DNA from: Phycisphaeraceae bacterium
GTDB lineage: Bacteria; Planctomycetota; Phycisphaerae; Phycisphaerales; UBA1924
Length of the DNA stretch: 39,252 nt
Assembly: GCA_019636795.1 (NCBI GenBank)
Contig: JAHBWW010000006.1
Coordinates: forward strand, 1 to 39,252
Direction: 5' to 3'
How positions within the stretch are numbered: position 1 is the stretch's first letter; each line of letters opens with the position of its first letter. The position numbers and the translations under genes are program-made. Shown piece by piece: positions 1-24,630 of the stretch. The notes beneath the pieces are model-generated. The model ran no database searches and had not been told where the DNA came from. It was given only the letters and a program-made list of their open reading frames with translations.

Positions 1-69
1 GGCAGACGCAGCGGACTTAAAATCCGCGTCCCTGAAAGGGGAGTGTGGGTTCGAGTCCCACCTGGCCCA
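1..69 (+). tRNA. tRNA-Leu(UAA), 5' end missing
   Basis: The window opens inside a tRNA gene. The anticodon arm is GCGGA-CTTAAAA-TCCGC, which places UAA as the anticodon (leucine). It is followed by a long variable arm (GTCCC-TGAA-AGGGGA-like), as expected of a class II leucine tRNA, then a T arm GTGGG-TTCGAGT-CCCAC and the 3' acceptor strand CTGGCCC with discriminator A at 69. The 5' acceptor strand and most of the D arm lie outside the window. CCA is not encoded in the visible 3' end. Confidence 0.93.
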
Positions 70-169
70 TTGGCTGAGCATCAGGCACGGCAAAAACAGA
101 ACGCCGGTTCAGGAGCAATCTGGTACACTCCGCGCAGGGCTTTGCTCAAGCCTCGGGGAGGACGTTGCG

Positions 170-1441
170 ATGATGCGAAACTGGATGCGGCTAATTCTTA
201 CCGCTGCCTTGGGGTTGGCGATCGGTCTGCCAAGCGATGCGGGTTCTGCCACAGGCGATGGCGAGGCGCTGGCGGGGCGATGGATCGATCCGAGTCACAT
301 CTGGAAGCCTTTGTTTGACGGCCAGAGCCTCAAAGGCTGGGTGCAGGTGGGCGAGGAAGGAGCCTGGGCGGTGCAGGACGGGGAGATCGTCGTGGCCAAG
401 CCCGGCAAGGGCTGGTGGCTGCGGACGGCCAAGATGTACCGCGATGTGGATCTGAGGCTGGAGTTCTGGCTGCCTCCGGGTGCGAACAGCGGGGTGGGGA
501 TTCGGGGTTCGAGTGTGGGCGATCCGGCGTTTACGGGGTTCGAGGTTCAGGTATTTGATTCGTTTGGCAAAGAGCCGACGGTGCAACATTGCGGCGCGGT
601 GTACAACGCGATCGCGCCGACGAAGCAGGCGGTCAAGCCGGCGGGCGAATGGAACTCGATGCGGATTCGGGTGGTGCGCGACACGCTGGATGTGTGGCTC
701 AATGGCGAGCAGATTCACACTGCCCAGAAACTCGATGAGCGCGGGCATCATCATCGGGTTGAGGACGCGATGCCGCTGAAGGATCGCCTGACGACGGGGT
801 ATATTGCGCTTCAGGATCACGGGCACGCGGTGCGGTATCGGAAGATCGAGGTGCGGGATCTGTCGCCGGACCCGGAACCGGAAGGGCTCGATGGCGGGGG
901 CTATGAGTCATTGTTCAACGGGCGCGACACGAGCGGGTGGTTCAAGACGGGGATTGCACGGTGGGAAGTGGTGGAGGGGACGCTGGTGGGGCGTGACGGC
1001 CCGGGGCACCTGTTCAGCGAACGGGAGTTTGGCGATTTCGAGTTGCGGGCGCTGGTGAAGGTGAACAGGCGGGGCAACAGCGGGATCTACTTCAGAACGG
1101 TGCCGAACGCGCAGAACCGCGATTCGTGGCCGACGGGCTATGAGGCGCAGGTGGATAACCACGACCCGAGGAATTTTACGGGGAGTGTGTACAACAAGGC
1201 GTGGCCTAAGGCAACGTTGCCGGTCACGCGCGATGACGCGTGGTTTGACTACCGGATTTTAGCGATAGGGAATCGGATTCAGACGTGGATCAACGGCGTG
1301 GCGATGGTGGATGCGGAGTTGGAAGAGTTCTCGCGTGGGCATATTGCGCTGCAGGGCCACCACCCGGGGAACGAAATCATGTATCGTGATGTGCGGATTC
1401 GGGAGATAGTGCCTGCGAGCGCAGAGCCGAAGGCCGAATGA
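170..1441 (+). CDS. Exported protein with two DUF1080 (3-keto-disaccharide hydrolase) domains
   Basis: 423 residues with an N-terminal signal peptide (charged start, hydrophobic stretch about residues 7-20, small residues near 25). Two tandem DUF1080 (PF06439, concanavalin-like fold) domains can be read: about 45-230, with FDGQSLKGW and NSGVGIRG, and about 245-415, with FNGRDTSGW and NSGIYFRT. Each ends in GYIALQ or GHIALQ followed by YRxxxIR-like strands. Members of the family hydrolyse 3-keto-glycosides or bind glycans; which of these applies here is inference. The start is fixed by GGGGAGGA eight bases upstream of the first ATG. It heads a plus-strand run with an MFS carrier and two Gfo/Idh/MocA oxidoreductases, which fits a role in sugar oxidation and cleavage outside the cytoplasm. 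Confidence 0.9.
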   Translation: MMRNWMRLILTAALGLAIGLPSDAGSATGDGEALAGRWIDPSHIWKPLFDGQSLKGWVQVGEEGAWAVQDGEIVVAKPGKGWWLRTAKMYRDVDLRLEFWLPPGANSGVGIRGSSVGDPAFTGFEVQVFDSFGKEPTVQHCGAVYNAIAPTKQAVKPAGEWNSMRIRVVRDTLDVWLNGEQIHTAQKLDERGHHHRVEDAMPLKDRLTTGYIALQDHGHAVRYRKIEVRDLSPDPEPEGLDGGGYESLFNGRDTSGWFKTGIARWEVVEGTLVGRDGPGHLFSEREFGDFELRALVKVNRRGNSGIYFRTVPNAQNRDSWPTGYEAQVDNHDPRNFTGSVYNKAWPKATLPVTRDDAWFDYRILAIGNRIQTWINGVAMVDAELEEFSRGHIALQGHHPGNEIMYRDVRIREIVPASAEPKAE

Positions 1442-1453
1442 GCGATCAATAGG

Positions 1454-1469
1454 GCGCACGGGCGTGCGC
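1454..1469 (+). repeat. Short GC inverted repeat between DUF1080 gene and MFS gene
   Basis: GCGCACG and CGTGCGC face each other with two bases between them (effectively a six-pair stem with a GGGC loop). No T run follows, so it is not a standard intrinsic terminator; it could be an mRNA processing or stability hairpin in the 53-base spacer. Confidence 0.4.
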
Positions 1470-1494
1470 TGAGCAGAAGAAGGGTACGTCAGGC

Positions 1495-2847
1495 ATGAGT
1501 GAACCAGCGTTGGGCAAGGGCGGTCTGATCGGGATGCGGCTGAGCATCATGATGTTTCTGCAGTTTTTTCTGTGGGGGGCGTGGTATGTGACGATGGGGC
1601 CTTACTTGGCCAACTTGAAGATGGAAGGATCGTTCATCGGTTCGGCGTATTCGCTGGGACCGATTGCGGCGATCTTCAGCCCGTTTTTCCTGGGCATGAT
1701 TGCGGACCGGTTCTTTCCGACAGAGCGTGTGCTGGGTGTGATGCACGTGCTGGGCGGGGTGCTGCTGATGGCGGCACCACTGGCGATGGAGCGGAGCCCA
1801 AACTTGTTTCTTGCGGCGGTTCTGCTGCACATGCTGTGCTACATGCCGACGCTGGGGCTTACCAATACGCTGGCGTTTCACAACATGACGAATCAGGAGA
1901 AGCAGTTCCCGCTGATTCGGGTGTGGGGGACGATTGGATGGATTGTGGCGGGGCTGACAATCTCGCGGCTTGGGTTCGACACCGATGCGCGGATGTTCTA
2001 TGTGGCGGGTGGTTCGGGCGTGTTGCTGGGGCTGTACAGTTTTTCGTTGCCTCATACGCCACCACCGGCCAAGGGGACGGCGTTTTCGGTGCGCGATGCG
2101 TTGGGGCTTGATGCATTGTCGATGCTCAAGGATCGTTCGTTTGCGGTGTTTGTCTTGTGCTCGTTTCTGATCTGCATTCCGCTGGCGGCGTACTACGCAT
2201 TTGCGGGGCAGTATGTGGGGGAAACGGGTTTCAGGCAGATCGCGACGACAATGACGCTGGGGCAGATGTCCGAGATTTTCTTCATGATTGTGATGCCGCT
2301 GTTCTTTGTGCGGCTTGGTGTGAAATGGATGCTGCTGGTGGGCATGGGTGCGTGGGTATTGCGGTATGTGTTCTTTGCCCAGGCGGCGGATGAGCAGGTG
2401 CGGTGGATGGTGTTGGCGGGCATTATTCTGCACGGGATCTGCTATGACTTCTTCTTTGTGACCGGGCAGATCTATGTGGATAAGCGGGCGAGCAAGAAGA
2501 TCCGCGGAGCTGCGCAGGGGTTCCTGGTACTCATCACACAGGGTCTCGGGATGCTGATCGGTGCGAAGGCATCGGGCCGATTGGTTGACCTGTATAAGGC
2601 CGACGATTTTGACCTGCTGGTGACGCAGGCCAAGGCGTTGCGTGAACAGGCCACGGAACTCGCCAAGGGCGGGAATGTGCCGGAGGTGGATCGGTTGTGG
2701 GCGGAATCGTCGCGGTTGTATATGCAGGCGACAGATTGGCAGAGTGTGTGGATGGCCCCTGCGATCTTTGCGGGGGTTGTGATGGTGGTGTTCTTCCTGT
2801 TTTTCAGTGGAAAGCCTTTGAAGGAGGGATCTGGTGGAGAGGGGTAG
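1495..2847 (+). CDS. MFS transporter, nucleoside:H+ symporter (NupG)-like
   Basis: 450 residues with about 12 hydrophobic membrane segments. The N-terminus, RLSIMMFLQFFLWGAWYVT followed by MGPYL, is the hallmark of the nucleoside permease NupG/XapB-like branch of the major facilitator superfamily (PF03825), which is widespread in planctomycetes next to sugar genes. The loop after TM2 has the expected DRFFPTERVLG. A cytoplasmic segment near residues 355-400 (KADDFDLLV...ALREQATELAKG) is an insertion before the last helices. The substrate cannot be read from the sequence; the neighbours suggest a sugar or nucleoside-like glycoside. It starts 53 bases after the DUF1080 stop, with GAAGAAGG upstream. 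Confidence 0.88.
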   Translation: MSEPALGKGGLIGMRLSIMMFLQFFLWGAWYVTMGPYLANLKMEGSFIGSAYSLGPIAAIFSPFFLGMIADRFFPTERVLGVMHVLGGVLLMAAPLAMERSPNLFLAAVLLHMLCYMPTLGLTNTLAFHNMTNQEKQFPLIRVWGTIGWIVAGLTISRLGFDTDARMFYVAGGSGVLLGLYSFSLPHTPPPAKGTAFSVRDALGLDALSMLKDRSFAVFVLCSFLICIPLAAYYAFAGQYVGETGFRQIATTMTLGQMSEIFFMIVMPLFFVRLGVKWMLLVGMGAWVLRYVFFAQAADEQVRWMVLAGIILHGICYDFFFVTGQIYVDKRASKKIRGAAQGFLVLITQGLGMLIGAKASGRLVDLYKADDFDLLVTQAKALREQATELAKGGNVPEVDRLWAESSRLYMQATDWQSVWMAPAIFAGVVMVVFFLFFSGKPLKEGSGGEG

Positions 2848-2961
2848 TCTCCCGGGTGGTGTGATTCGACAGCCTGGAGCAGAGATTTGGGTTGAGCGGG
2901 GCTGAGAATCGGATATGCTGGTGTTTGGCTGCGGGTCGAAGCCGCAGGAACCTATGGGATC

Positions 2962-2979
2962 TCGTGCCAGCAGGCACGA
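2962..2979 (+). repeat. Hairpin directly before the ribosome binding site of the first Gfo/Idh gene
   Basis: TCGTGCC-AGCA-GGCACGA forms a perfect seven-pair stem with a four-base loop. It ends three bases before the GGAG that serves the ATG at 2996. Its position supports the downstream start and could affect translation or mRNA stability. Confidence 0.55.
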
Positions 2980-2995
2980 TGCGGAGTGCATGAGA

Positions 2996-4324
2996 ATGTC
3001 TGAGCAACGAGTGTCTGAGCAGTCGAGAAGAAGTTTCCTTGGTCAAGCCGTCGCGGTTGCGGGGGTTGCAGCGATCGCGGGTTCGGCTGCTGCGAGCAAC
3101 CGTGCGGGCAAGCCGGCGTTCGTGGCGGAGCGGTCGAAGAAGAAGGCTGTGAGGCTGGCGCCGGGCGAGACGATTCGCATGGCGGTCATCGGCACGGGCG
3201 GCATGGGCACGGGGCATTGCCAGAGCACGATGGCGATGGCCAAGCGTGGCGAAGAGAACGTGCAGATTGTCGCGCTTGCGGATGTGAACCAGGTGCGCAT
3301 GGCCGACGCACACCGTCGGTGCGAGAGCGAACAGGGCATTACGGTCGATCAGTACACGGACTATCGCAAACTGCTGGAACGCGATGACATTCATGGTGTG
3401 CTGGTGGCCAGCCCCGAGCATTGGCACGGCAAGCACTGCACCGACGCGCTGATGGCGGGCAAGGATGTCTACTGCGAGAAGCCGATGACGCTGCGTCTTG
3501 AAGAGGGTCTGGCGCTGCGCGAAGTGGTGCTGAAGAATCCGGACCGGATCTTCTGCGTCGGCACACAGAAGATCATCCTGCCCAAGTACATCGAAGCGCG
3601 TCGCCTGATCAAGGAAGGTGCGATCGGCAAGCCGACGATGAGCCAGACGAGTTATTGCCGCAACTCGAAAGACGGGGAGTGGTTGTACTACGGGCTGGAT
3701 CCAAAGTGGCAGCCCGGGGTGAACATGGACTGGGAAGCGTGGCTGGGCGATTTGCCCAAGCGGCCCTGGAGCCCCGAGATCTACGCCCGGTGGCGCCGGT
3801 ACAAGGACTTCTCGACCGGCATCGTGGGCGATCTGCTGGTGCACGAGATCACGCCTCTGATCATGGCGCTTGATTCGGGCTGGCCGACGCGGGTGTGCGC
3901 TTCGGGCGGGCACTACGTCGACAAGAAGATGGAGAATCACGACACGGTGAATCTGAACGTGGAGTTCGAGGACGGGCACACGATGATCATCGCGGGTTCG
4001 ACTGCCAATGAGGTCGGGCTTGAGACGCTGATTCGCGGGCACAAGGGGAATATGTTCCTCAACAGCCGGCATGTCGTGATTCGCCCCGAGCGGCTGTATG
4101 TCGATGACATCGATGCGCGGACGGTCGAATGCGCGGACATCGGCAACGATCAGGAGAAACTGCGTCTGAACTGGTGGCAGTGCATGCGCAACCGCGAGCC
4201 GGCCATCAGCAACGTGGAACTGGCCACCAAGGTCATGGTCGCGGTGGATCTTGCGACACGGTCGATGTGGGATGGTGCGGCATACGGATTCGACCCTGAG
4301 ACGATGCGCGCTCGCAAGCTCTGA
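2996..4324 (+). CDS. Tat-exported Gfo/Idh/MocA family oxidoreductase
   Basis: 442 residues from the chosen ATG. The frame is open back to 2915, but a twin-arginine signal (SRRSFLGQ then an Ala-rich hydrophobic stretch, residues about 10-34) should be near the N-terminus, and GGAG at 2983-2986 sits nine bases before ATG 2996; ATG 2990 is an alternative. The Rossmann motif is IGTGGMG (about 65-71). The family EKP motif is intact (CEKPMT, about 140-145), and so is the GDLLVHE segment with catalytic-type Asp259 and His263. These NAD(P)-dependent enzymes oxidise or epimerise sugars; Tat export with a pre-bound cofactor is typical of planctomycete members. It probably acts with the DUF1080 protein and the MFS carrier upstream. 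Confidence 0.92.
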   Translation: MSEQRVSEQSRRSFLGQAVAVAGVAAIAGSAAASNRAGKPAFVAERSKKKAVRLAPGETIRMAVIGTGGMGTGHCQSTMAMAKRGEENVQIVALADVNQVRMADAHRRCESEQGITVDQYTDYRKLLERDDIHGVLVASPEHWHGKHCTDALMAGKDVYCEKPMTLRLEEGLALREVVLKNPDRIFCVGTQKIILPKYIEARRLIKEGAIGKPTMSQTSYCRNSKDGEWLYYGLDPKWQPGVNMDWEAWLGDLPKRPWSPEIYARWRRYKDFSTGIVGDLLVHEITPLIMALDSGWPTRVCASGGHYVDKKMENHDTVNLNVEFEDGHTMIIAGSTANEVGLETLIRGHKGNMFLNSRHVVIRPERLYVDDIDARTVECADIGNDQEKLRLNWWQCMRNREPAISNVELATKVMVAVDLATRSMWDGAAYGFDPETMRARKL

Positions 4325-4334
4325 GATCGACCCT

Positions 4335-5249
4335 ATGGAGAGCGTGAACGTCCGTCTGGCGACGCACGCGATGGGGACCCGCTTTGAACTCGTCCTGAAC
4401 GGTCAGGACGAGTCTTTTTTGCGCGCGGTCGGTGAAGAGGCGATTGCGGAGATTCAAGAGCAGCATGCGAGGCTGAGTGTTTTCGATCGGGGCAGTCTGC
4501 TGTCGCGGGTCAATGCACTCGGGGCGGAGCGGTGGGTCGAGATTGATCGCGATCTGCTGGAGTTGCTGATGCTGTGCCGACGGGTGTGGGAGGAGTCGGA
4601 TGGGGCGTTTGATCCGGCTGTCGGAGGGCTGATGCGACGGTGGGGGTTTCGGGGAGAAGTGGGGCCAGCGGCTGGGGCAGTGGCTGGTGGGTTCGAGTCG
4701 GTCGAGATCGACGAGGCGAACAGCAGCGTGAAGCTCGGAGCGGGGGTGGAGCTGGACCTTGGGGGCGTGGCCAAGGGGTATGCGCTCGATCGGGTGTGGG
4801 AGCGGATGCGGGCGCTGGGGGTGGAGCGGGGGATCATTCACGGGGGGACGAGCACGGTGGTCGCGATCGGGTCGCCTCCGGGGGTGGGGGCGTGGCGAGT
4901 GCAGGTGCCTTCTGGAGCGAGCGAGGCGGGGTTGCTGGATGTGCATTTGCGGGATGGTGCGTTGTCAGTGTCGTCGCCGAGCGGGCGGGAGAGAGTTGAG
5001 GATGGGTTGATGGTCGGGCATGTGATGGATGTCCGTTGCGGGAAGCCTGCGCGAGGGGCACGGGCGGCGGCGGTGGCAGGGGCATCGGCAGCCGAGGCCG
5101 ACGCCTGGGCGACGGCATTGGTGGTTCTCGGGCAGAGGCCGCATAGGATGCCCGTAAATCTGTCGAGCGCGATCGCGGGAGATGGTTGCTGGAAGGTCGA
5201 GCAGCAAGACGCAGTGTTCGTGACGAATGGGACTCAAGACGGAAGGTGA
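4335..5249 (+). CDS. apbE: ApbE-like FAD:protein FMN transferase
   Basis: 304 residues from ATG 4335, 10 bases after the preceding stop. The frame extends further upstream into the previous gene, but homology begins at MESVNVRLATHAMGTRFEL. Family signatures are HAMGTRFE near residue 12, a region with LSVFDRGS and SRVNA, LDLGGVAKGYALD near 140, GIIHGG and the C-terminal EADAWATALVVLG. ApbE attaches FMN to Thr or Ser of exported or membrane redox proteins. Unlike many family members it shows no signal peptide or lipobox. The usual HxxDPRTG segment reads HVMDVRCGKP here, a small departure. No protein with a clear flavinylation motif was seen nearby, so its target is unknown. A terminator-like hairpin lies within codons 18-29. 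Confidence 0.87.
   Translation: MESVNVRLATHAMGTRFELVLNGQDESFLRAVGEEAIAEIQEQHARLSVFDRGSLLSRVNALGAERWVEIDRDLLELLMLCRRVWEESDGAFDPAVGGLMRRWGFRGEVGPAAGAVAGGFESVEIDEANSSVKLGAGVELDLGGVAKGYALDRVWERMRALGVERGIIHGGTSTVVAIGSPPGVGAWRVQVPSGASEAGLLDVHLRDGALSVSSPSGRERVEDGLMVGHVMDVRCGKPARGARAAAVAGASAAEADAWATALVVLGQRPHRMPVNLSSAIAGDGCWKVEQQDAVFVTNGTQDGR
4388..4420 (+). terminator. Intrinsic-terminator-like hairpin inside the 5' end of apbE
   Basis: ACTCGTCCTGA (4388-4398) and TCAGGACGAGT (4403-4413) form a perfect 11-pair stem with loop ACGG, followed directly by CTTTTTT. This is the best intrinsic terminator shape in the window. It lies 64 bases after the stop of the first Gfo/Idh gene and 53 bases inside apbE, so it may end transcripts of the upstream genes or attenuate apbE. 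Confidence 0.72.
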
Positions 5250-5254
5250 ACGGC

Positions 5255-6487
5255 ATGTTTGAATCGGATCGTCGGACATTTCTTGGTCAGACCGCCGGCC
5301 TGGCAGCTTTTGCGCTGATGCCTAAGAGTCTGTATGCGTTTGGATTTTCGGGTGCGGCGGTGCGTGTGGCGATCATCGGTGCGGGGCGGCAGGGCCGGGC
5401 CATCATCGGTGAACTTGCGAAGATTGATGGGGTGGAGATCGCGGCGCTGTGTGACGTGGATTCAACGCGACTCGATGCGGGTCTGAGGCGGACGCGCGGC
5501 GCCATCGGCTACGCGGCGCACGAGGCACTGCTCGACAAGGCTGATACCTTTGACGCGGTGTTCATCGCGACGCCGACGCATCTGCATCGCAAGCCAGTTG
5601 AGGATTGCATCGCGGCGGGCAAGCATGTGTATTGCGATGGGCCTCTGGCCTCGACGATCGAAGATGCGGCTGCGATCGCGCGTGCGGCGCGGTCGGCGGG
5701 GACGGTGTTTCAGTCGGGCATGCAGGGGCGGTCGAATCCGGTGTACACGCTGGCGCGATCGTTCTTCCGGTCCGATTCGGTGCGCGATCTGGTGAGCATT
5801 CACGCGCAGCAGAACCGCAAGGCGTCGTGGCGCGTGCCGGCCGACAGCCCGGATCGCGACCGCGCGCTCAACTGGCGGCTCGACCCTGACGTGACGCTCG
5901 GTCTGGCTGGCGAACTGGGCACGCAGCAGATCGATACGGTGTGCTGGTTCACGGGGAAGTATCCGGTGTCGGTGCGCGGGCTCGGTTCGGTGCGGCTGCA
6001 CCGCGACGGGCGCGAAGTCGCGGACACGATCAGTTGCCAACTGGCGTTCGAGGATGGCGCTGTGATGACGTATGACGCGACGCTGGCCAACTCGTATGGC
6101 GGGACGTTCGAGACGCTGTTCGGGACCAATGCTGCGATCAAGCTTGCGGGAACGCACGCGTGGATGTTCAAGGAGGCCGACGCCCCGACACAGGGGTGGG
6201 AGGTTTATGCGAATCGCCAGCAGTTCCACAATGATGAGGGCATCACGCTGATCGCGGGCGCTACGCAGTTGGCGTCGCAGGGCAAGTTGCAGGAAGGCAT
6301 CGGTCTGCCGCACGCTCCGCTGTATTATGCGGTGGGCGACTTTCTCAAGAGTGTGGCGAGCGGGGCGAATGTCGCGTGCTCGGCTGAGGAAGGCTATCGC
6401 GCGACGGTTGTGGGCATCAAGGCGGCGCAGGCGGTCGCGACCGGGCAGACGGTTTCGATTGCCGAGAGCGATCTGCGGGTGAGCTAA
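5255..6487 (+). CDS. Gfo/Idh/MocA family protein with Tat signal and altered catalytic motifs
   Basis: 410 residues. GGAAGG at 5241-5246, eight bases upstream, fixes ATG 5255; the stop of apbE is only five bases before. The N-terminus has a twin-arginine motif (DRRTFLGQ) and a hydrophobic stretch. The Rossmann loop IGAGRQG (about 41-47) and the core fold are intact. Two family landmarks are not: the EKP motif is DGP at 128-130, and the GxxGxHxxD segment reads GELGTQQID, with Gln224 where His is expected. It may be a pseudo-enzyme, a partner subunit of the oxidoreductase upstream, or an enzyme with different chemistry. About 380 residues beyond the signal is normal for the family. Confidence 0.88.
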   Translation: MFESDRRTFLGQTAGLAAFALMPKSLYAFGFSGAAVRVAIIGAGRQGRAIIGELAKIDGVEIAALCDVDSTRLDAGLRRTRGAIGYAAHEALLDKADTFDAVFIATPTHLHRKPVEDCIAAGKHVYCDGPLASTIEDAAAIARAARSAGTVFQSGMQGRSNPVYTLARSFFRSDSVRDLVSIHAQQNRKASWRVPADSPDRDRALNWRLDPDVTLGLAGELGTQQIDTVCWFTGKYPVSVRGLGSVRLHRDGREVADTISCQLAFEDGAVMTYDATLANSYGGTFETLFGTNAAIKLAGTHAWMFKEADAPTQGWEVYANRQQFHNDEGITLIAGATQLASQGKLQEGIGLPHAPLYYAVGDFLKSVASGANVACSAEEGYRATVVGIKAAQAVATGQTVSIAESDLRVS

Positions 6488-6514
6488 TCGGTTTGGGAAT
6501 GCAAGGGGACGCGG

Positions 6515-7285
6515 ATGGCCAAGCCGGCGTTGCGACTGAGGGATTTCGGGGTTGGCGTGCGTTTGGCGCTGACGCTGCTGGCACTGCTGGTGGTGTTCGG
6601 GTGCGCGGCGTCGGGCCTGTACATGAAGAAGTTTCAGGAGAATCGCGACGAGAGGCCTGGATTTACGTTCGATGACATTCGAGCGCACTATCACGGCCTG
6701 ACGACGTATCCACCGATGCTCAAGGCGCTCGAGAGCGGGCACCCGCCGGAGTTGCCCCAGCGCGAGCGCGACGCCTTGATCTCCTGGCTCAAGAGTGACA
6801 GGCTTGCACAGGATTACGACAACTTTGACCTGGGCGATCTGGCGCCCGAAGAGATCATCGTCGGTAACTGTGTGTCGTGTCATGCGCGCAGCGCGACCGG
6901 ACCGGATGCGATGCCGAAGATGTCGCTTGAGTATTTCGACGATGTGCGGGCGCTGTCGATCTCGCGCACGATCAAGCCGGTCGATGAGAAGATTCTGTAT
7001 GCGAGTCTGCACACGCATGTGCTGGGGCTGGCGTCATTGACGATTGTGGTGCTTGGTTTGCTGGCGCTGACGCGGTTGCCGGGCGTGATCGTGGGTTTGG
7101 TGAGTGTGGTGACGGCAGTGGGGCTGTGTGCAGATCTGGGGGCGTGGGTGCCGGCGCGGCAGCACGCGGTGCTGGTCGAGGTGATTCTTGTTGGCGGGAT
7201 TGCGTATCAGATCGGGCTGGTGGCGGCACTGGTGCTGGTGGTGTGCGATCTGTGGTGGCCCAAGGCGCGTGCGAGTCAGGCCTGA
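6515..7285 (+). CDS. Membrane protein with a single c-type heme motif
   Basis: 256 residues, with AAGGGGA upstream of ATG 6515. One membrane helix lies near residues 15-37, followed by a soluble segment of about 130 residues, then three or four more helices (about 168-250). The soluble part has a CVSCH motif near residue 119, the covalent heme c attachment site, so this segment should face the periplasm. No typical cytochrome c fold motif was recognised beyond CxxCH; a methionine-containing segment (AMPKMS) shortly after could supply the sixth ligand. As the last gene of the plus-strand cluster it is a plausible electron acceptor or conduit for the exported oxidoreductases. Its last ten bases overlap the end of the convergent cinA. 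Confidence 0.8.
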   Translation: MAKPALRLRDFGVGVRLALTLLALLVVFGCAASGLYMKKFQENRDERPGFTFDDIRAHYHGLTTYPPMLKALESGHPPELPQRERDALISWLKSDRLAQDYDNFDLGDLAPEEIIVGNCVSCHARSATGPDAMPKMSLEYFDDVRALSISRTIKPVDEKILYASLHTHVLGLASLTIVVLGLLALTRLPGVIVGLVSVVTAVGLCADLGAWVPARQHAVLVEVILVGGIAYQIGLVAALVLVVCDLWWPKARASQA

Positions 7286-8547
7286 GTCTGTTCAAAGAGC
7301 ATCGGCGTCGCCACGTCATCGAGGCGCAGCCGCACGATCGCCAGTGCCGTTGCAGCGGCCCAGGTTCGCACACTTGTGCGGTCGCCGGGGAACCTGAATC
7401 GGCGCACGTCGGTTGGCAAGTTTTCTGAGGCCAGCGCGAACCATACGGTGCCGACGGGTTTTGCTTCGCTGCCGCCTTCGGGTCCGGCGATGCCGGTGAC
7501 GGCGACGGCGTGGGTTGCGCCAAGTCGCGAGCGGGTGCCTTCGGCCATGGCGATGGCGCACGCGCAGCTGACGGCGCCGTGCTCGGCGATGATGGCGGGC
7601 TCGACACCGGCCAGTGCGGTCTTGAGCTCGTTGGTGTAGGTCACGAGTCCGCCGAGGTATGTTGCGCTTGCGCCTGCGATGTCGGTCAGCGCGCTGCCGA
7701 CGAGTCCGCCCGTGCAGCTCTCGACCGTCGCGAGAGTTTCACTGCGTTTGCGCAGGCGCGTAACGATGTGTTCGGCCAGCGAGACGTCGCGCGCGAAGAC
7801 GAAATCGCCCAGCGCGCTGCGTACGAGCTGCTCAGTCTGGTCGAGCGCGGCCTCATCGAGTCCGGTCGCCCGCAGGCGCACGCTCACGACGCCCTGGCTT
7901 GCGGTGGTGCCGACCAGCGGGTTGCGGGTGCGGTCCATGAGGCTTGCGAGTTGCTCGGCCACGGCGCTTTCCCCCAGCCCAAAGGTCGAGAGCACGCGGC
8001 ACCTGATTGTGCCGATGCCGGCGGCCAGCGGCGTGAGGACCCGCTCGAACATCGGCTTCATCTCGCGCGGCGGGCCGGGCAGGCAGGAGATGCGGCAATC
8101 GCCGATCGTGGCGGCCAGTCCGGGCGCTGTGCCGTGTGGGTTGTCGATCATGGCGGCGCCGGCGGGCCTCAGGGCCTGCACGCGGTTGGTGGCGGGCATG
8201 CGTCGGCCGCGCCCGGTGTACCAGGCTTCGATCGCGGCGAGTGCGGCGTCGTCGGTGATAAGTGTTTGGCCCATCGCGTCGGCCAGTGCGTGCCGCGTGA
8301 GATCATCGGCGGTGGGGCCGAGCCCCCCGGTGACGATCAGCAGGCTCGCGTCGCGTGTCAGGCGTGTGATGGCGGCGGCGATGGTCGCTTGATCGTCAGC
8401 CAGCGTCACATGCTCGCGCACTATGAAACCGAGTTCAGTCAGGCGGGCTGCGATCCACTGCGTGTTGGTGTCGAGGGTCTGGCCCAGGATCAGTTCGTCG
8501 CCGATGGCCAGAACAGCAGCGGTTTGCGTGGCGCTGGGGTGATGCAT
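7276..8547 (-). CDS. cinA: CinA-like protein (competence/damage-inducible CinA, NMN amidohydrolase)
   Basis: About 423 residues from ATG 8547; a TTG at 8556 is in frame. The N-terminal MoCF/COG1058 domain (about 8-175) has AIGDELILGQTLDTN and VTGGLGPTADD. The C-terminal CinA domain (PF02464, about 265-415) has ATVESCTGGL, SATYLGG, AVTGIAGPEGG and KPVGTVWF. The two-domain form hydrolyses ADP-ribose or deamidates NMN in pyridine nucleotide recycling. It starts 12 bases after the stop of the small membrane protein gene, in one apparent transcript with gap. Confidence 0.95.
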   Translation of the reverse strand: MHHPSATQTAAVLAIGDELILGQTLDTNTQWIAARLTELGFIVREHVTLADDQATIAAAITRLTRDASLLIVTGGLGPTADDLTRHALADAMGQTLITDDAALAAIEAWYTGRGRRMPATNRVQALRPAGAAMIDNPHGTAPGLAATIGDCRISCLPGPPREMKPMFERVLTPLAAGIGTIRCRVLSTFGLGESAVAEQLASLMDRTRNPLVGTTASQGVVSVRLRATGLDEAALDQTEQLVRSALGDFVFARDVSLAEHIVTRLRKRSETLATVESCTGGLVGSALTDIAGASATYLGGLVTYTNELKTALAGVEPAIIAEHGAVSCACAIAMAEGTRSRLGATHAVAVTGIAGPEGGSEAKPVGTVWFALASENLPTDVRRFRFPGDRTSVRTWAAATALAIVRLRLDDVATPMLFEQTQA

Positions 8548-8559
8548 GGCGGGCAACGG

Positions 8560-8994
8560 CTACCCTGCGACCTCGACTTCGACGGACACGTTGTCGCGTT
8601 TACCGACCTCGACGAACTTGCCCAGAAGTGCCATGCGTTCGGTCATGCTCGCGACGCGGCCGCGCACGCGGATGATGGCCGCGCCGTCTTCGGTGGCGCC
8701 CGATTCGATGACGACGTTTGCGAAGCGAGGGTCATTTGCGATGGCGGCGTTGGCCTTGTCGATCCATTGCTGATCGGTGCCGCGATGCTCGGCGATGCGG
8801 ACCGCCTCGCTGGGGCCGCTACCGCCTGTGAGCCGGGGTAGCCAGACCAGCAAGAAGACGACGAGGAGCACGAGGCCGATGCCGCCGCCGAGGATGATCG
8901 TCTTGCCCTTGCCTGAGCCCTTGACATCGTCCATCTTGTATTTCAGGTTCGTTCCGACATCGCCGAGTTTGTACTTCAGGTCATTCAGGCCCAT
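8560..8994 (-). CDS. Small single-pass membrane protein of unknown function
   Basis: 144 residues. GGAG lies seven bases before ATG 8994. The N-terminus carries two similar short amphipathic stretches (DLKYKLGDVG and NLKYKMDDVKG). One strong membrane helix follows (about 35-53), then a soluble domain of about 85 residues with alternating hydrophobic positions and IRVRGRVASM and VSVEVEV strands, which recalls BON-like or secretin-associated small folds, though that is a guess. It lies between gap and cinA with short spacers and is probably co-transcribed with them. Confidence 0.7.
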   Translation of the reverse strand: MGLNDLKYKLGDVGTNLKYKMDDVKGSGKGKTIILGGGIGLVLLVVFLLVWLPRLTGGSGPSEAVRIAEHRGTDQQWIDKANAAIANDPRFANVVIESGATEDGAAIIRVRGRVASMTERMALLGKFVEVGKRDNVSVEVEVAG

Positions 8995-9012
8995 CGCGCT
9001 GCTCCGTGCTGT

Positions 9013-9041
9013 GCAGGCCCGGCGCGTGCCGTCGGGCCTGC
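9013..9041. repeat. Nine-pair inverted repeat between gap and the small membrane protein gene
   Basis: GCAGGCCCG (9013-9021) and CGGGCCTGC (9033-9041) with 11 bases between. On the minus-strand transcript it sits 26 bases after the gap stop, with no U run. It could stabilise the 3' end of the gap message or set the ratio of gap to downstream genes. Confidence 0.55.
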
Positions 9042-9066
9042 GTCGGGTGAGTGAGTCGATCGGAAT

Positions 9067-10122
9067 TTACGCGTCCTTGCCCGCCATGAAGCGCAGCATG
9101 TCGAGGCAGCGGTGGGCGTAGCCCGCTTCGTTGTCGTACCACGAGACGATCTTGAAGAATCGGTCGTTGAGTTCGATGCCGGCCTTGGCGTCGTAGATGC
9201 TGCTGTGGGCATCGCCGATGAAATCGCTCGACACGACTTCTTCTTCGGTGTAGGCCAGCACGCCCTTCATCGGCCCGCTGGCGGCGGCCTTCATGGCGGC
9301 GTTGATGTCGGTCATGCTCGTCGGTCGGCTGGTGCGGAAGGTCAGATCGACGCACGAAACATCGGCGGTGGGCACGCGGAAACTCATGCCCGTCAGTTTG
9401 CCCTTGACCGGCGGGATGCACAGGCCCACGGCTTTGGCGGCGCCGGTGCTGGCGGGGATGATGTTCATGTAGGCGTTGCGACCGCCGCGCCAGTCCTTCT
9501 TCGATGGTCCATCCTGCGTGGGCTGGGTCGCGGTGGCGGCGTGGACGGTGGTCATCAGGCCTTCCTCGAAGCCGAAGGTGTCGAGGATGACTTTGGTGAT
9601 GGGTGCCAGGCAGTTGGTGGTGCAGCTGGCGTTGGAGACGATCACATCGGTCTTGGGGTCGTACTGCTCGTGATTAACCTTGTAGCACAGGGTCTTGACG
9701 GTGTCGGTGCTCTTGGTCGGGGCGCTGATGAGCACACGCTTGGCGCCCTTGCCCGCGGGGCCTGAGGCGATGTGCTTGGCCGCGCCGTCGTAGTCGGTGA
9801 AGAGACCGGTTGATTCAAGGACGTAATCGACGCCCATGTCGCCCCAGGGGATGTTGGTCGGGTCGCGCTCGGCGAGCGTGCGCGTGGTGCGGCCGTTGAC
9901 GGTGAACGAGCCTTCGGCGGCCTCGACGCTGGCGGGTTTGCCGCCGATGGTGAAGCGGCCGTGCATGGTGTCGTACTTGAGCAGATACGCCAGGTTGTCG
10001 GAGGGGACTAGATCGTTGACAGCGACGACTTCGACATCGCCCTGCTGGCAGGCGGCGCGATAGACGAGGCGACCGATGCGACCGAAGCCATTGATTCCGA
10101 TGCGGGTGGGCATGAGAGACAT
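9067..10122 (-). CDS. gap: Type I glyceraldehyde-3-phosphate dehydrogenase
   Basis: 351 residues from ATG 10122 (348 if ATG 10113 is used; AAAGG at 10126-10130 is rather close to the first). The frame is open further upstream but homology begins at [18 protein letters not shown]. Motifs are NDL after the first fold, [11 protein letters not shown], the active-site [34 protein letters not shown] and the C-terminal [12 protein letters not shown]. This is the glycolytic NAD-dependent, phosphorylating enzyme of the cytoplasm. It is the first gene of a three-gene minus-strand group with the small membrane protein gene and cinA. Confidence 0.98.
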
Positions 10123-10610
10123 TGACCTTTCGTTATGGCCGCGGGCGGCGGCACAGGGCGGTGCGAGCAAAGCGGGCCGAACCCCCGGCCCGGGCGTGAT
10201 TGTAGGGGCGGTTCGTTCGTGCCACCAAGATGACCTGTCCCCATCAAACCGGTCCAGGTTCGGGTGCTGTTTCTGAATCTGGGCTACGGAGGATACATTG
10301 TTGGAAACGCAGAGTTCGAGTGCGGAGCAGATCGTTCCAAAGGTGCGTGCTACCGACGTGGCGAGTTTCAAGAGGCTGCCGAGCGATGCGACGATGGCCT
10401 AAAGGCTGGCACTCGAGAATCAGCGGCTCAATTGCCAACGGCTCGATATTCACGAGACGCTCAGTTTGATAAATCACCGCTCGTCGACCACCCACGTCAC
10501 CCTTGTGCTTTGCATCGCGTAGCGCCAAGCGATGGCTGGGTGTATACGCTCCAGATCGCCTGGTTCGCACTCTTTCCGGTCTAGACCTCGACCCTGCCTT
10601 GCGACACCGA
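10123..10610. other. Intergenic region between gap and the receiver gene
   Basis: This 488-base stretch lacks a convincing full gene. On the minus strand its left edge is the gap leader, including a GC hairpin (GGGCCG and CGGCCC, about 10174-10191). The middle holds a short plus-strand frame described separately. The right part is downstream of the kinase-receiver operon and shows no hairpin with a T run that would end that operon. Confidence 0.5.
10301..10402 (+). CDS. Possible 33-codon frame with strong ribosome binding site, or decayed gene
   Basis: GGAGG at 10288-10292 is followed eight bases later by TTG 10301 and a frame of 33 codons ending in TAA 10400-10402. After that stop the same frame runs on for 39 sense codons to TAG at 10520-10522, with codon third positions rich in G and C as in real genes, so the TAA could be a nonsense mutation in a gene of about 73 codons. 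The product ([19 protein letters not shown] at its start) is not recognised. It has no neighbours on its strand. This is a weak call. Confidence 0.25.
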
Positions 10611-11000
10611 TCACAAAGCCGGGCATGGTCTCGGCGCATCGAGGGCCGCACCGATGGTCGAGAGCAGTTCGCTTGTGTCGAACGGCTTGTAGATCAGCGC
10701 GAAGGCCTGGTGCGCTCGCGCGATCTGTGCAACGCGTTCCGAGCGTTCACCTGTCAGGTAGATCACCGGAACACCTTTGAGGTGGACCATTTTCTCCACG
10801 CGGTCCTGGACTGTGAAGCCGTCGCCCGCAGGCATGTTGATATCGAGAATCATAACATCCGGCCACTTGCGGCGAGCCTGATCCACGGCCTGATACGAAT
10901 CCTGCACACACAAAACCTCAAATCCCTCGGCCCGCAAACGAACAGCGAGTGAGTGAAGAAAACTCTGGTCGTCATCTGCCAGCAGAATTTTATGTGCCAT
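10611..11000 (-). CDS. Stand-alone response regulator receiver protein
   Basis: 129 residues, a single receiver domain with no output domain. Acidic pocket residues are at LADDD (about 7-11), the phosphorylation site is Asp53 (MILDINMP), Thr83 (YLTGE) and Lys105 (YKPFD) are conserved. AGGAGG lies upstream of ATG 11000. It is the last gene of the kinase operon, 26 bases after the preceding receiver. Its partner is probably the kinase at 11819-13918; with no DNA-binding domain it should act through protein contact or phosphotransfer. Confidence 0.93.
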   Translation of the reverse strand: MAHKILLADDDQSFLHSLAVRLRAEGFEVLCVQDSYQAVDQARRKWPDVMILDINMPAGDGFTVQDRVEKMVHLKGVPVIYLTGERSERVAQIARAHQAFALIYKPFDTSELLSTIGAALDAPRPCPAL

Positions 11001-11026
11001 AGCATGGTCCTCCTGTTCAATAATTG

Positions 11027-11434
11027 TTAATCACTTGTGCGACTCGATGCTGCAACAGCAAGTTCTGTGTCTGCAATCGCAGATGCCACAAGCCTTACAA
11101 GTTCTTCGGTCACAAATGGCTTGTGCAGAAACAAGATGTCGCGCACATGCCGCAGTTGCTTACGATACGCGTCCTTGAAGCCACTGATGAGAATGATCGG
11201 AATCACCGAAACGCGCCGAATGCTCTCAGCCAGCGCAACGCCATCACCCTGAGGCATGTTCAGATCAGAAATGATGAGATCCGGGGGGTCGGCATCAAAT
11301 CGAGCGAGCGCTTGCGAGCCGCAGTTGGCCGTCGTGCAGCGATAACCGTTTGCGCTGAGCCGTGCTGCCAGTGCAGTTACAACCGCTGGGTCATTGTCGA
11401 CGATGAGAATGTGTTTCGAGTTCAATGTGCTCAT
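11027..11434 (-). CDS. Stand-alone response regulator receiver protein
   Basis: 135 residues, receiver domain only. Conserved positions: IVDNDP (acidic pocket, with Asn at one place often held by Asp), phospho-acceptor Asp57 (IISDLNMP), Ser84 (LISGF) in the switch position and Lys105 (HKPF). GGAGA lies before ATG 11434, which overlaps the stop of the preceding receiver gene by four bases (ATGA), so translation is probably coupled. A tail of about 15 residues, Ala- and Ser-rich, follows the domain. Confidence 0.93.
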   Translation of the reverse strand: MSTLNSKHILIVDNDPAVVTALAARLSANGYRCTTANCGSQALARFDADPPDLIISDLNMPQGDGVALAESIRRVSVIPIILISGFKDAYRKQLRHVRDILFLHKPFVTEELVRLVASAIADTELAVAASSRTSD

Positions 11435-11829
11435 GATGATTCTCCATATGAAAGTACGCTCTTCCTGCTGATGGCTCTCTTCAAACAGGCAATGAGAAGT
11501 TCGGGGTCATATGGCTTGCAGAAGAAGCCGGCAGTTCCGAGCACTCGCGCCTCCTGCCGCACGGTGTCTTGCACATTTGCGGTCAGAATGATGACAGGTA
11601 TGATGCCAAGGCTTGGTTCGAGACGCATTCGACGCAGGACTTCAAATCCGTCAATGTCCGGCATACGCAAGTCGAGCAGGATTGCGTCCGGAAGCAACTT
11701 GCGTGCAGCCTCGATGCCACTGAACCCATCGGACGCAGTGTGCATTTCGAAGCCCGCAGCACCGAGCCGGGCAGAGAGTGCCCTCGCAATCATCCATTCA
11801 TCATCGATGATGAGAACTTTATGAGACAT
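11431..11829 (-). CDS. Stand-alone response regulator receiver protein
   Basis: 132 residues, receiver domain only. Acidic pocket IIDDE, phospho-acceptor Asp53 (LLDLRMP), Thr83 (ILTAN) and Lys105 (CKPYD) are all present. GGGGAG is placed seven bases before ATG 11829 and lies within the end of the kinase gene; the two frames overlap by 11 bases. The LRMPDIDGFEVLRRMR segment is close to the Spo0F/CheY-like standard. It is the first of three receivers behind one kinase. Confidence 0.94.
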   Translation of the reverse strand: MSHKVLIIDDEWMIARALSARLGAAGFEMHTASDGFSGIEAARKLLPDAILLDLRMPDIDGFEVLRRMRLEPSLGIIPVIILTANVQDTVRQEARVLGTAGFFCKPYDPELLIACLKRAISRKSVLSYGESS

Positions 11830-13918
11830 GAATCTGCTCCCCGATAATCATGTTCTTGACATCCTCAAACCCGCGCTCGAGCTGATATTTGAAACTCCAA
11901 TGCCCCAGCATTTCAATTCTGAGTGGAGCCAGGTCGATCTGGTTCTCGCTCATGAGTTGAGATCGTGTTCGGCGGAGTCTGTCGGTCCACGCCTCGGCAG
12001 ACTTCGTGCGCCCAATGATCCAGAATGCCGTCGGAGGCTGCTCTGTGCTGGCGTCGCATTGATCGAGCACAATCGGATAGATCAAGTCGGTAGCGTACGT
12101 GACTGACGCAAGAAATGACTGAGGCTCATCGGGCTCGCTGTTGCCGATTGGGCACTCGACTTCAGCCCTGAGCACCGCAATTTCTTCTCCCGTGTTCTCA
12201 CTTGTCCGAATGGTCCTGAGGTAGTGTTCGAGCACCGACTCGGGCTGATTGATTGGAAGCGTGAAGTAGAATGTTGCTCCCTCGCCCTTCTCGCTTCGGA
12301 CGGATAGTGAACCCAAATTCAGCCAGGCGAGTTCCTGTGCGATGCTAAGCCCCAGGCCAAAGCCTTTTGCAGCAACTGTTCGCGATGTGGACACCTGCTG
12401 GAATCGACCGAACAATCGATCCATCTCTTCGGGCGTCAGACCGGGGCCGTGATCGGTTACCGAAATCATGACTTCATCAGGTTGCTCAGAGCACGATGCC
12501 CCCAGAATGATCGACGCTCGTTCGGGCGAGAACTTGATCGCATTGGTCATGAGATTCCCGACCACACGGCGAATTTTCTCCTCATCTGCAAAGACGAGAG
12601 GCAGACAAGGATCGATGCGCTCTTCGATTACGATCGACCGTGCTGAAGCCTTGTTAGAAAGGACAGATCGGCCTGACGTCAGTATTTTTGCGACATCATG
12701 AGCCCTTCTATCCACGCGAAGACGGCCGGCCCGCAACTTGCTCGAATCCAGCAGGTCCTCGACCATGTGATTCAAATCCATCACCGCGCCGTCCATGATC
12801 TTCAGATACGACGCCTGCTCCGGAGTGACGGGGCCGGCGAGTCCATCGGCAATGATCGAAGCGAACTCCTTGATGACCGACAGCGGTGTACGAAACTCGT
12901 GCGAGACGTCGTCCACCACGCGGTGCGCTCGCTCGGCCATGACCGACAGTTCCACGTTTTGCCGTTCGATGATTGCCAGCGAATTCTTGAGACGTGCCTG
13001 CGACTCTCGTTCAATTGTGATGTCGCGATTAACTCCGACGACAGAAGTGGGTCTGCCGCGGTCATTGAGTCGAACCAGGTCAGCAGCCTGAATGACCCGC
13101 GTCGTGCCGTCGGGTCGGCGAATACGAAACTCACGTTCGCTTCGTCCGCCTCGCGCAATTGTGTCGTGCAGTATCGCTTCCTGCGTGGCCAGATCATCAG
13201 GATCCAAAGTAGCAGTCCAGGTCGCATACTCGACTAATCCGTCGGGCGACGGCGCGAGGCCATAGATCTCGAACATCTTCGTATCCCAGTGCACCAGCCC
13301 AGAGTTCAAGTCCCAGTCCCAGACGCCAAGGTTTCCAATCTGCACGGCCTGACTCAGTCGGCTGGAGGTTTCGTGCAGCGAGAGTTCTCCACGTTTGCGG
13401 GGGGTGATGTCATTACGAATCGACACGATCGATTCAAGTTTTCCATCCGCGTCCGAGAATGGGGCAATGATGCTGTCAACCCAGTAGAGAGAACCATCCT
13501 TGGCTCGATTGCAGACTTCTCCGCGCCAAGGCTTGCCCGCCATGATTGTGCGCCACATCGTCGACCAGAACTTCTTGTCGTGATATCCGGAGTTGATCAA
13601 GCGATGATCTTGCCCGATGAGTTCCTTGCGTGAGTATCCACTGATCGCGCAGAACGCGTTGTTGACTTTGATAATCTTGCCTTTTGCATCAGTCACCGAA
13701 ACAATCGAGTGTTTCTCAAGTGACTTGCTCAACGCTTCGAAGTCGCGCTGAGCGTGTTCGAACTTGGCATGCTCGCTTGCCGCCTTCACAGCGCAGCTTG
13801 TTTCGTAGCTCTCCGACTCAGTCGCAGGGGCAGTTTGGTCGTGTGAAGTGTGCTCGGTGTGCGTGTTGCGAGTCTTGCGGATTCCAGAGTTCATGAACAA
13901 GTGCTTGGGGGTACTCAT
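11819..13918 (-). CDS. Cytoplasmic PAS-PAS sensor histidine kinase with extra C-terminal domain
   Basis: 699 residues without a membrane segment or signal peptide. Domains in order: a charged N-terminal segment, PAS 1 (about 65-175, with NNAFCAISGYSRKELIGQ), PAS 2 (about 185-305, with GVWDWDLNSG and VVGVNRDIT), a short coiled link, HisKA with His340 in DDVSHEFRTPLS, HATPase_c with N box NLMTNAIKFS (about 455-464), G1 DHGPGL and G2 GFGLGLS, ending near 555. About 140 residues follow that I do not recognise; they contain no receiver or HPt motif. GGAGA lies about ten bases before ATG 13918. The three receivers behind it form an operon with it. Signal: unknown, sensed in the cytoplasm. Confidence 0.93.
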   Translation of the reverse strand: MSTPKHLFMNSGIRKTRNTHTEHTSHDQTAPATESESYETSCAVKAASEHAKFEHAQRDFEALSKSLEKHSIVSVTDAKGKIIKVNNAFCAISGYSRKELIGQDHRLINSGYHDKKFWSTMWRTIMAGKPWRGEVCNRAKDGSLYWVDSIIAPFSDADGKLESIVSIRNDITPRKRGELSLHETSSRLSQAVQIGNLGVWDWDLNSGLVHWDTKMFEIYGLAPSPDGLVEYATWTATLDPDDLATQEAILHDTIARGGRSEREFRIRRPDGTTRVIQAADLVRLNDRGRPTSVVGVNRDITIERESQARLKNSLAIIERQNVELSVMAERAHRVVDDVSHEFRTPLSVIKEFASIIADGLAGPVTPEQASYLKIMDGAVMDLNHMVEDLLDSSKLRAGRLRVDRRAHDVAKILTSGRSVLSNKASARSIVIEERIDPCLPLVFADEEKIRRVVGNLMTNAIKFSPERASIILGASCSEQPDEVMISVTDHGPGLTPEEMDRLFGRFQQVSTSRTVAAKGFGLGLSIAQELAWLNLGSLSVRSEKGEGATFYFTLPINQPESVLEHYLRTIRTSENTGEEIAVLRAEVECPIGNSEPDEPQSFLASVTYATDLIYPIVLDQCDASTEQPPTAFWIIGRTKSAEAWTDRLRRTRSQLMSENQIDLAPLRIEMLGHWSFKYQLERGFEDVKNMIIGEQIHVS

Positions 13919-13949
13919 GGCCTATGTTCTCCAGCAGGCAACATTGCCT

Positions 13950-13969
13950 TGCCGATCCGGGTATCGGCA
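13950..13969. repeat. Inverted repeat in the leader of the kinase operon
   Basis: TGCCGAT (13950-13956) and ATCGGCA (13963-13969) with six bases between, about 30 bases upstream of the kinase start codon. It could be an operator or a leader hairpin. Confidence 0.5.
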
Positions 13970-14013
13970 CGCGTGGATGCAGGCTTGAATCAACCCGAGT
14001 CTTCATTTTCGAA

Positions 14014-14027
14014 GTGTGATTGCACAC
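14014..14027. repeat. Short palindrome GTGTG-ATTG-CACAC
   Basis: A five-base half-site repeated in inverted order around ATTG, in the A+T-richer part of the divergent region. It has the size of a regulator binding site; no known regulator can be named. Confidence 0.35.
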
Positions 14028-14059
14028 AACCCCCAAAAATCATGACAAACCACTACATT

Positions 14060-14078
14060 CGCTTGCGTAGTGCAAGCG
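14060..14078. repeat. Inverted repeat CGCTTGC-GTAGT-GCAAGCG
   Basis: A perfect seven-pair inverted repeat with a five-base centre, about 140 bases upstream of the kinase start. No T run follows on either strand. A dyad operator is the simplest reading. Confidence 0.45.
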
Positions 14079-14333
14079 TCTAATTGGACGGTTGTGTCCG
14101 CATCGAACGCGCGTCACTCTTCAATTTCGCGGGCACACAGTGATCCGACTTGCGTGAAACCACCAGACACCTTGGCATCGCGTGCCCCCGCCACCGGTGC
14201 CGGAGATCTTCGCCCATGCAATCGAACAAATCGTACTAATTGGACTTCCAGACTCGCCGAACCTATTCTTCCAGCGAATCCGTGGATGATCGGGGCCACC
14301 CACACAGCAGATTCACTACCGGCGGCTTGTTGG

Positions 14334-14350
14334 GGACGCGATGTGCGTCC
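14334..14350. repeat. Inverted repeat GGACGC-GATGT-GCGTCC
   Basis: A six-pair dyad 69 bases upstream of the helicase start, probably within its leader RNA. Leader structures are common in cold-responsive helicase genes, but a regulatory role here is inference. Confidence 0.35.
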
Positions 14351-14418
14351 AGAGGCACTCCGGCAACTTCCACACACGCCGGAACGCCCGATCCATCCGG
14401 ATATCAAGGTTCAAAAGC

Positions 14419-15822
<1,404 letters not shown>

Positions 15823-15970
15823 CACATTCGCCGCAATGTGCGGCTCACTGGACTTCAACGCGGGGCCGGCTTTCGAAAGAAAGGCGGCCCTGTTCGTTCT
15901 CACTGCTCCCGAGCCGTACCAACTGCACTTTGTCTACACTCGGATCATCCCGCTCTCTCGGAGGTTGCTC

Positions 15971-16288
15971 ATGCTCGCACGTCGGCTGCTTGCAATGGCC
16001 TGTCTGTTGATCGTCCTCGCAGCCGCTGCATGGCTTGTTGCCGGATGGAGTAATCTCTTCGGCTGGCCTGCCAATCGCGATCTTGTGGTCATCGCCATCT
16101 CGCCCGACACAGTGCTGCATTACGCCGACGGCATGCCTCAGTCCCTGGGCGGCTCATACATGTGGGCTGGTCCACACACCGGCCAATGGCTCGTTCGATA
16201 CGGCATCCCGCTCGCCTTGATCGTCGGATTCGCCCTTGTTCCGGTGTGGCAGTTGTTCAAAAGTCCGCCGACGCGCGACTCTCGCTGA
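15971..16288 (+). CDS. Small membrane protein of unknown function
   Basis: 105 residues. The open frame extends back to 15836, but GGAGG at 15960-15964 stands six bases before ATG 15971, and the protein then begins with a strong membrane segment (about 4-25). A second helix lies near 80-97. The loop between them (about 55 residues, with SPDTVLHYADGMPQSLGG) should lie on the outer face. No family was recognised. It follows the helicase by 148 bases, possibly with its own promoter. Confidence 0.65.
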   Translation: MLARRLLAMACLLIVLAAAAWLVAGWSNLFGWPANRDLVVIAISPDTVLHYADGMPQSLGGSYMWAGPHTGQWLVRYGIPLALIVGFALVPVWQLFKSPPTRDSR

Positions 16289-16360
16289 GTGTGGATCGTC
16301 TGCTCGGCTTCGTCCTTGCTCAGCTCTGTTTTCGTGCTTCTCAACGTACTTGTTGCGAAA

Positions 16361-17236: not shown

Positions 17237-17281
17237 ATCATAGGGTACCAGCCCATGGGCCGGTTACACCTGTTCGCCTGC

Positions 17282-19105: not shown

Positions 19106-19152
19106 GGTCGATCAATCCTTGGTGCTCGATGACTGCAGAAATTGGGCCGGTG

Positions 19153-19179
19153 AGTATAGCGGGCGCATCCGGGCGTCAA
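19153..19179 (-). promoter_or_regulatory. Candidate sigma-70 promoter of aspS
   Basis: On the minus strand TTGACG (19174-19179) is followed after 15 bases by TATACT (19153-19158), in the 97-base spacer before aspS. The -10 box has five of six consensus bases and the -35 box five of six; the spacer is two bases shorter than ideal. The -10 box ends about 48 bases before the start codon. Confidence 0.5.
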
Positions 19180-19202
19180 AACGTCCCACGCTTCAAAGGT
19201 TA

Positions 19203-20735: not shown

Positions 20736-20743
20736 GCCAGATT

Positions 20744-20941: not shown

Positions 20942-20957
20942 GACCGAACCGCCTGAC

Positions 20958-22055: not shown

Positions 22056-22195
22056 GCGATCGTCATTCCTTCATCGGTCAAAACCGGGGCCAACGCCGAC
22101 GCACAGTCTGCGCAACAATAACCCCGCGGATTCCGAATTCGCACGGAGTGTAGGTGACCTCCTCCGTATCCGCCAACGGCCAGGAAAGAGAGGAA

Positions 22196-24415: not shown

Positions 24416-24630
24416 CTGTACTCCCGTCGGGTTGCAGCCTGCCGAACACTCAAGGCACGACCCATCTCTCTACGGACCAGACTCCCGAAAAGATCGACCC
24501 CCTCTACCGAGGGTGTTGAATCAGGTTCCGTACGAAGCCTCTCTTCGCATCATATCGGATCATCCTATTCGTGCGCTCATTTTCCGAACCAAACTCCGCC
24601 AGAAGAGACTCAACACTGACCTCTTCCAGC

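Follow-up and report, generated by a model that had tools for sequence, protein, structure and literature searches.

Within the window, i.e., the whole stretch of 39,252 nucleotides of Phycisphaeraceae DNA that was analyzed, the early coding part of apbE carries a hairpin followed by a T run. All 11 of its base pairs (G-U pairs counted) recur in the same codon register in 6 of 71 distinct segments, namely our own and those of five relatives (G024, G079, G033, G137, and G138). The pairing is kept by two-sided changes inside codons despite protein identities of 47–69% among these carriers, which points to selection, and the comparison favors an element at the nucleotide level over an accident of the protein sequence. 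Given the conservation and the T run, an element of the terminator type is likely. The explanation that we prefer, at slightly better than an even chance, is a partial intrinsic terminator (attenuator) within the first 30 codons of apbE that would be gated by apbE translation.

The hairpin, its host gene, and the operon

The stem (4388–4413) is formed by the arms ACTCGTCCTGA and TCAGGACGAGT around the four-base loop ACGG, and is followed by C4414 and then by TTTTTT at 4415–4420 (Table 1). Its 11 pairs are all Watson-Crick, six of them G-C, with an energy of −17.8 kcal/mol. The T run is the sole run of at least five T in the organism's own gfo1, apbE, and gfo2, and no T run lies beyond the stem on the minus strand. 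Two features expected of an intrinsic terminator are therefore present: a G+C-containing stem with a short loop, and a T-rich tract on the sense strand adjoining the stem. The earlier note on this DNA had described a perfect terminator shape; its 11-pair stem, four-base loop, and T run were all found, but the run does not come directly after the stem, since C4414 intervenes. The note had also placed the stem 53 bases inside a reading frame, which agrees with the apbE ATG at 4335 and with the assignment of the frame to ApbE (PF02424, E = 1.3e-48), and had called it the best terminator candidate in the window. Two window scans bear this out, as the site has the most pairs (11, against 9 for the runner-up). 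The window overall is not clearly rich in terminator-like sites, with 11 found versus 14.8 expected in 1–20000 and 21 versus 15.6 in 19800–39252. The 151-nt context of the hairpin folds no better than shuffled sequences (z = −0.45), but its minimum-energy structure contains the hairpin, as does its centroid structure.

Table 1. Coordinates of the apbE element and of the neighboring genes in the window.
Feature	Position	Strand	Remarks
gfo1, Gfo/Idh/MocA oxidoreductase	2915–4324	+	PF01408, E = 5.9e-19; upstream of the element
apbE, FAD:protein FMN transferase family	4335–5249	+	PF02424, E = 1.3e-48; host frame of the element
5′ arm	4388–4398	+	third base of the E codon, whole L-V-L codons, first base of the N codon
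Loop ACGG	4399–4402	+	
3′ arm	4403–4413	+	third base of the G codon, whole Q-D-E codons, first base of the S codon
Six-T run	4415–4420	+	inside codons TCT TTT TTG
gfo2, second Gfo/Idh/MocA oxidoreductase	5255–6487	+	PF01408, E = 1.7e-20; 5 bases past apbE
Membrane protein with one CVSCH (heme c type) motif	6515–7285	+	from the translation; PF13442, E = 0.095, below cut-off

The genes between 170 and 7285 run in one direction and encode a 3-keto-disaccharide hydrolase, an MFS nucleoside/sugar permease, Gfo1 (with a TAT-region match below cut-off), ApbE, Gfo2, and the CVSCH membrane protein; together, they perhaps form an extracytosolic keto-sugar redox system. The order of the last four genes is kept in relatives. 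All of the 14 relatives listed have gfo1 ahead of apbE, 13 have gfo2 behind it (the remaining locus, L047 of G138, is truncated where its contig stops), and 12 have the CVSCH protein downstream. Over the full set of homologous segments, gfo1 was recognized in 61 of 71. The spacing between gfo1 and apbE is 10 bases in our genome, about 93 in G137, and about 296 in G138. Our genome also encodes Rho and has two ApbE-like genes, the second at C6:315007–315804. No match to FMN_bind (PF04205) or DUF2271 (PF10029) was found in it, two families that the cited part of one study includes among those serving as flavinylation markers (PMC8238504).

Conservation of the pairing among relatives

Homologs of ApbE were sought in 163 genomes of the family, 400 of the order, 181 of a second family, and 397 of the class; the organism's own genus is represented by its genome only. 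In the family, 52 genomes had a match at E ≤ 1e-40, of which G153 and G161 were left out, and G086 and G113 were dropped for lack of the motif. The 99 loci were reduced to 71 distinct segments by setting aside 10 without a recognizable motif, as well as identical, cut, and unmatched ones. The segments were anchored at a conserved ApbE motif and are a mix of orthologs and distant homologs (~30% identity). Further carriers were not found among the loci inspected from the order, the second family, and the class, and a contig scan gave one distant ApbE.

The carriers stand apart from the other segments in both the stem and the tail. In the five carriers other than our own, the stem extends to 13 pairs, and the 12 bases counted from the last base of the stem contain six to eight T in all six carriers, whereas the 65 non-carrier segments have at most nine pairs and at most five T. 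The stem begins after about 42–53 coding bases in the carriers. In an ApbE tree of 60 rows, each with at least 38% identity and with the bootstrap not settled, the six carriers and G078 form one clade (support 100/95), and the carrier label requires two changes. G078 has 7 of the 11 pairs and five T in the tail, one below the weakest carrier. Therefore, one basal gain and one loss in G078 would suffice as the simplest history. The earlier note had asked whether the stem is kept in relatives although other codons change, and this is the case: five of the six clade-mates retain the full set of 11 pairs, with compensatory changes at the two inner pairs. The note had named loss of the pairing in near relatives with an unchanged protein as evidence against its reading; among the clade-mates, the stem is lost in G078 alone, and this check did not refute the reading.

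The loop-proximal pairs vary on both sides, as C-G/G-C/U-A at one and C-G/A-U/G-C/U-A at the other. Of all alignment cells, 98.7% are paired, and the covariation score was matched by none of 500 shuffles; two pairs have changes on both sides, a count reached by 79 of the 500. When 17,931 stem placements (position by loop size) were scanned in the gfo1, apbE, and gfo2 alignments of seven species, at least 10 of 11 pairs in six species were found at this site alone (three overlapping placements), and non-overlapping sites reached at most two species. When the three genes were recoded 60 times, the maximum was three of seven species for this site and five for any site. It is worth noting that the gfo2 row of G138 in the placement, recoding, and T-run scans is a cross-match to gfo1 caused by the contig end. 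A single consensus fold of the seven leaders, which does not search alternatives, includes the stem, with no competing partner for either arm.

The variation in the arms also bears on a palindromic DNA operator for a regulator. The palindrome is perfect with a 4-bp spacer, and its core occurs once without mismatch in the 3.49-Mb genome, as an operator might. However, the inner arm letters differ across species while complementarity stays, which a protein reading the bases would not need, and the T run is one-sided; we regard an operator as very improbable. A repeat or uptake-type sequence was also rejected, as the core is unique without mismatch and, with up to two mismatches, occurs at 19 places versus 12 for a reversed control.

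The tests above do not by themselves weigh the contribution of the protein, and codon-level nulls were used because the peptide RFELVLxGxDExFL favors complementarity. The codon counts behind the stem and T-count probabilities and the synonymous recoding exclude the element itself. Given the protein and local codon usage, our own stem has P = 0.001 (12 of 13 pairs) or 0.004 (11 of 11 pairs). Per carrier, the values range from 0.001 to 0.029 (0.009–0.029 without our own), versus 0.31 for G078. Each relative taken singly is only mildly unusual, since the peptide ELVLxGxDE favors pairing. One rival reading is a coincidence, in which hydrophobic (CTC GTC CTG) and polar (CAG GAC GAG) codons happen to be complementary in a G+C-rich genome and the ELVLxGxDE peptide is prone to palindromes; the peptide does lift the odds, as recoding alone gives at least 10 of 11 pairs in 10–19% of draws in five of the six relatives. 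By contrast, the joint pattern is rare. The own genome was omitted from the joint recoding test because it had been chosen for its stem. At least 10 pairs in at least five of the six other clade members occurred in 27 of 400,000 synonymous draws (P = 6.75e-5, with sister species taken as independent), and all 11 pairs in at least five of the six in none of 400,000. With three lineages represented by one member each, the probability that every one of them has at least 10 pairs is 0.0026. Fisher's method, applied to G024, G078, and whichever member of each sister pair fared worse, gives 8e-4.

Codon choice also speaks against coincidence. In G137, where GC3 is 0.95 (codon usage including the element's own codons), a sample of 1,150 operon codons contains 68 Glu codons, one of them GAA, and 35 Phe codons, three of them TTT; the sole GAA and two of the three TTT fall inside the element. 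Synonymous sites among the carriers are close to saturated. The mean excess of shared codons among the carriers is 0.02 over 266 windows, of which the element's window ranks third, such that codon identity is otherwise near expectation and the shared codons do not reflect mere descent. Together with the compensatory inner pairs, these results make coincidence improbable.

Small inserts in ApbE are present between the FELVL strand and the next helix in eight relatives (L023, L026, L027, L052, L057, L061, L063, and L064), at the position that the hairpin occupies in the carriers.

The T tract and terminator-like signals elsewhere

The evidence for the T tract is less uniform than that for the stem. 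Three of the six carriers have more T than their codons would predict, i.e., our own (P = 0.0065), G033, and G137, whereas the count is as predicted in G024 (P = 0.83), G079 (P = 0.55), and G138 (P = 0.49). An 8-base window at the end of the stem contains five to seven T in the six carriers. In gfo1, apbE, and gfo2 of the seven species (G138 gfo2 left out), there are five runs of at least five T, four of them exactly after the stem, and these four are the only runs of at least six T in those genes. The d'Aubenton-Carafa score, as computed here, is −4.8 for our own element, 12th among 38 hairpins with at least nine pairs in a genome sample; it is −19.3 for G024 and 2.7, 12.0, 35.7, and 39.7 for the other four carriers. 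The scores below zero, the three carriers with ordinary T counts, and the stem loss in G078 count against a terminator.

This difference between a stem that is constant in all six carriers and a T tract that goes beyond codon expectation in three, along with the five T remaining in G078 where the stem is missing, would suit a stem acting post-transcriptionally. It might slow ribosomes early in apbE or serve as a site for an RNA-binding protein or a nuclease, with the T run a by-product of Phe-Phe-Leu. We consider such a role rather unlikely, because the runs of at least six T occur only right after the stem, in four of the six carriers, and because Rfam 15 gave no match in 2500–7500 at E up to 1, so that no known element of this kind was recognized. 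The lack of an Rfam match also led us to reject a known RNA family. In the loci of the six relatives, Rfam gave three hits to microRNA models, all far below cut-off, in the gfo1-apbE gap of G138, and these were judged to be due to chance. They fall, on both strands, in a self-complementary stretch at L047 1160–1240, which is perhaps a bacterial interspersed repeat. GGA is the motif of CsrA sites, and a CsrA site was rejected since GGA is missing from the loop of our own element.

A programmed frameshift at TCT TTT TTG was likewise rejected, as neither frame has a conserved product. The −1 frame runs for 6 codons in our own genome, G024, G033, and G138, 41 in G079, and 235 in G137; the +1 frame runs for 19 codons in our own genome, G024, G079, and G138, 31 in G137, and 72 in G033.

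In a 439-kb sample of the genome, where ORFs were called by a simple longest-ORF rule and ~9% was called intergenic, 12 of 24 hairpins with at least 11 pairs and a T tail were intergenic, and 9 of these 12 lay within 150 bases of the end of a gene on the same strand. This concentration between genes suggests that the organism probably uses such signals. At the gfo1-apbE junction itself, no terminator-like site was found in 64 of the 71 segments (54 of the 61 with gfo1 recognized), which suggests that the operon usually manages without one. In the gfo1-apbE gap of G146 (L053), a hairpin of 13 pairs is followed by TTTTTT. It is the sole intergenic terminator-like site that the scan found in the 71 segments, and it suggests that this operon can benefit from a transcript that stops behind gfo1. 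None of the five sigma-70-like matches of 1–20000 falls between gfo1 and apbE, and a promoter there was rejected.

The intergenic hairpin of G146, which takes the place of the intragenic one, and the gap of just 10 bases in our genome raise the possibility that gfo1 has a plain 3′ terminator, which extends into apbE because the genes are tightly packed. Such a terminator would set a fixed ratio of gfo1 to the downstream genes and protect the end of the gfo1 mRNA, with no control by translation. However, the gaps of G138 and G137 are roomy and have no intergenic terminator-like site by the scan, and both genomes keep the intragenic one. In G138 in particular, the element is not merely squeezed in for want of space. 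We therefore consider a plain terminator unlikely, and prefer the translation-gated attenuator.

A possible attenuator and its known counterparts

In the proposed attenuator, the hairpin probably sets the transcription level of the remaining operon. RNA polymerase moving past gfo1 would transcribe the hairpin and the U-rich tract, and a fraction would stop there, leaving gfo1 mRNA that ends in a stable hairpin; the fraction reading through would continue into apbE, gfo2, and the cytochrome-like gene, which would be lowered relative to gfo1. Termination and its efficiency are predicted steps, as is the effect of the ribosome. If a ribosome on apbE trailed the polymerase closely, it would disrupt the stem and favor read-through, such that expression of the rest of the operon might follow the translation of apbE, as the earlier note had suggested. 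With the stem 42–53 coding bases into apbE, the masking ribosome would be an elongating and not an initiating one. Termination would also produce mRNA with the apbE start and without a stop codon, and a need for ribosome rescue is thus predicted.

A broader reading, which we put forward as possible though tentative, is a dual-coded attenuator, in which one stretch would encode both an ApbE motif and a terminator, with compensatory codon changes across four genera, with the demands of the RNA shaping DEFFL and its codons, and with downstream redox genes that depend on apbE translation. The apbE element would offer a compact case of RNA structure constraining protein sequence.

Terminators inside ORFs are known mainly from 3′-end mapping, and in our judgment, it is often unclear whether they represent regulation or noise. 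Such terminators are thus already known as a class, and the apbE hairpin, as a candidate identified by sequence comparison, is a new conserved member. In the open-license literature, no paper describing a terminator or hairpin within apbE was found. In Escherichia coli, RNA 3′ ends were found inside reading frames, part of which were attributed to intrinsic termination in the cited part of that work (Adams et al., 2021, PMC7815308). The apbE element resembles these ends in its intragenic position, although those of E. coli were mapped experimentally and the evidence for apbE is comparative (PMC7815308). In Borrelia burgdorferi, internal 3′ ends include one located 148 nt into the potB ORF of potABCD, which the portion of the study cited here links to spermidine (PMC10319736). 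In both potB and apbE, transcription may end prematurely near the start of a gene that lies downstream in its operon, with the potB case being the one linked to spermidine (PMC10319736). The proposed masking by ribosomes at apbE builds on known transcription-translation coupling: in a study of the pyr leader and EF-P reporters, as described in the cited part, an advancing ribosome prevents formation of the terminator hairpin and allows read-through (PMC5021804). The pyr and EF-P cases are leader or reporter constructs, whereas in the putative apbE case, the host frame would be the enzyme gene itself (PMC5021804).
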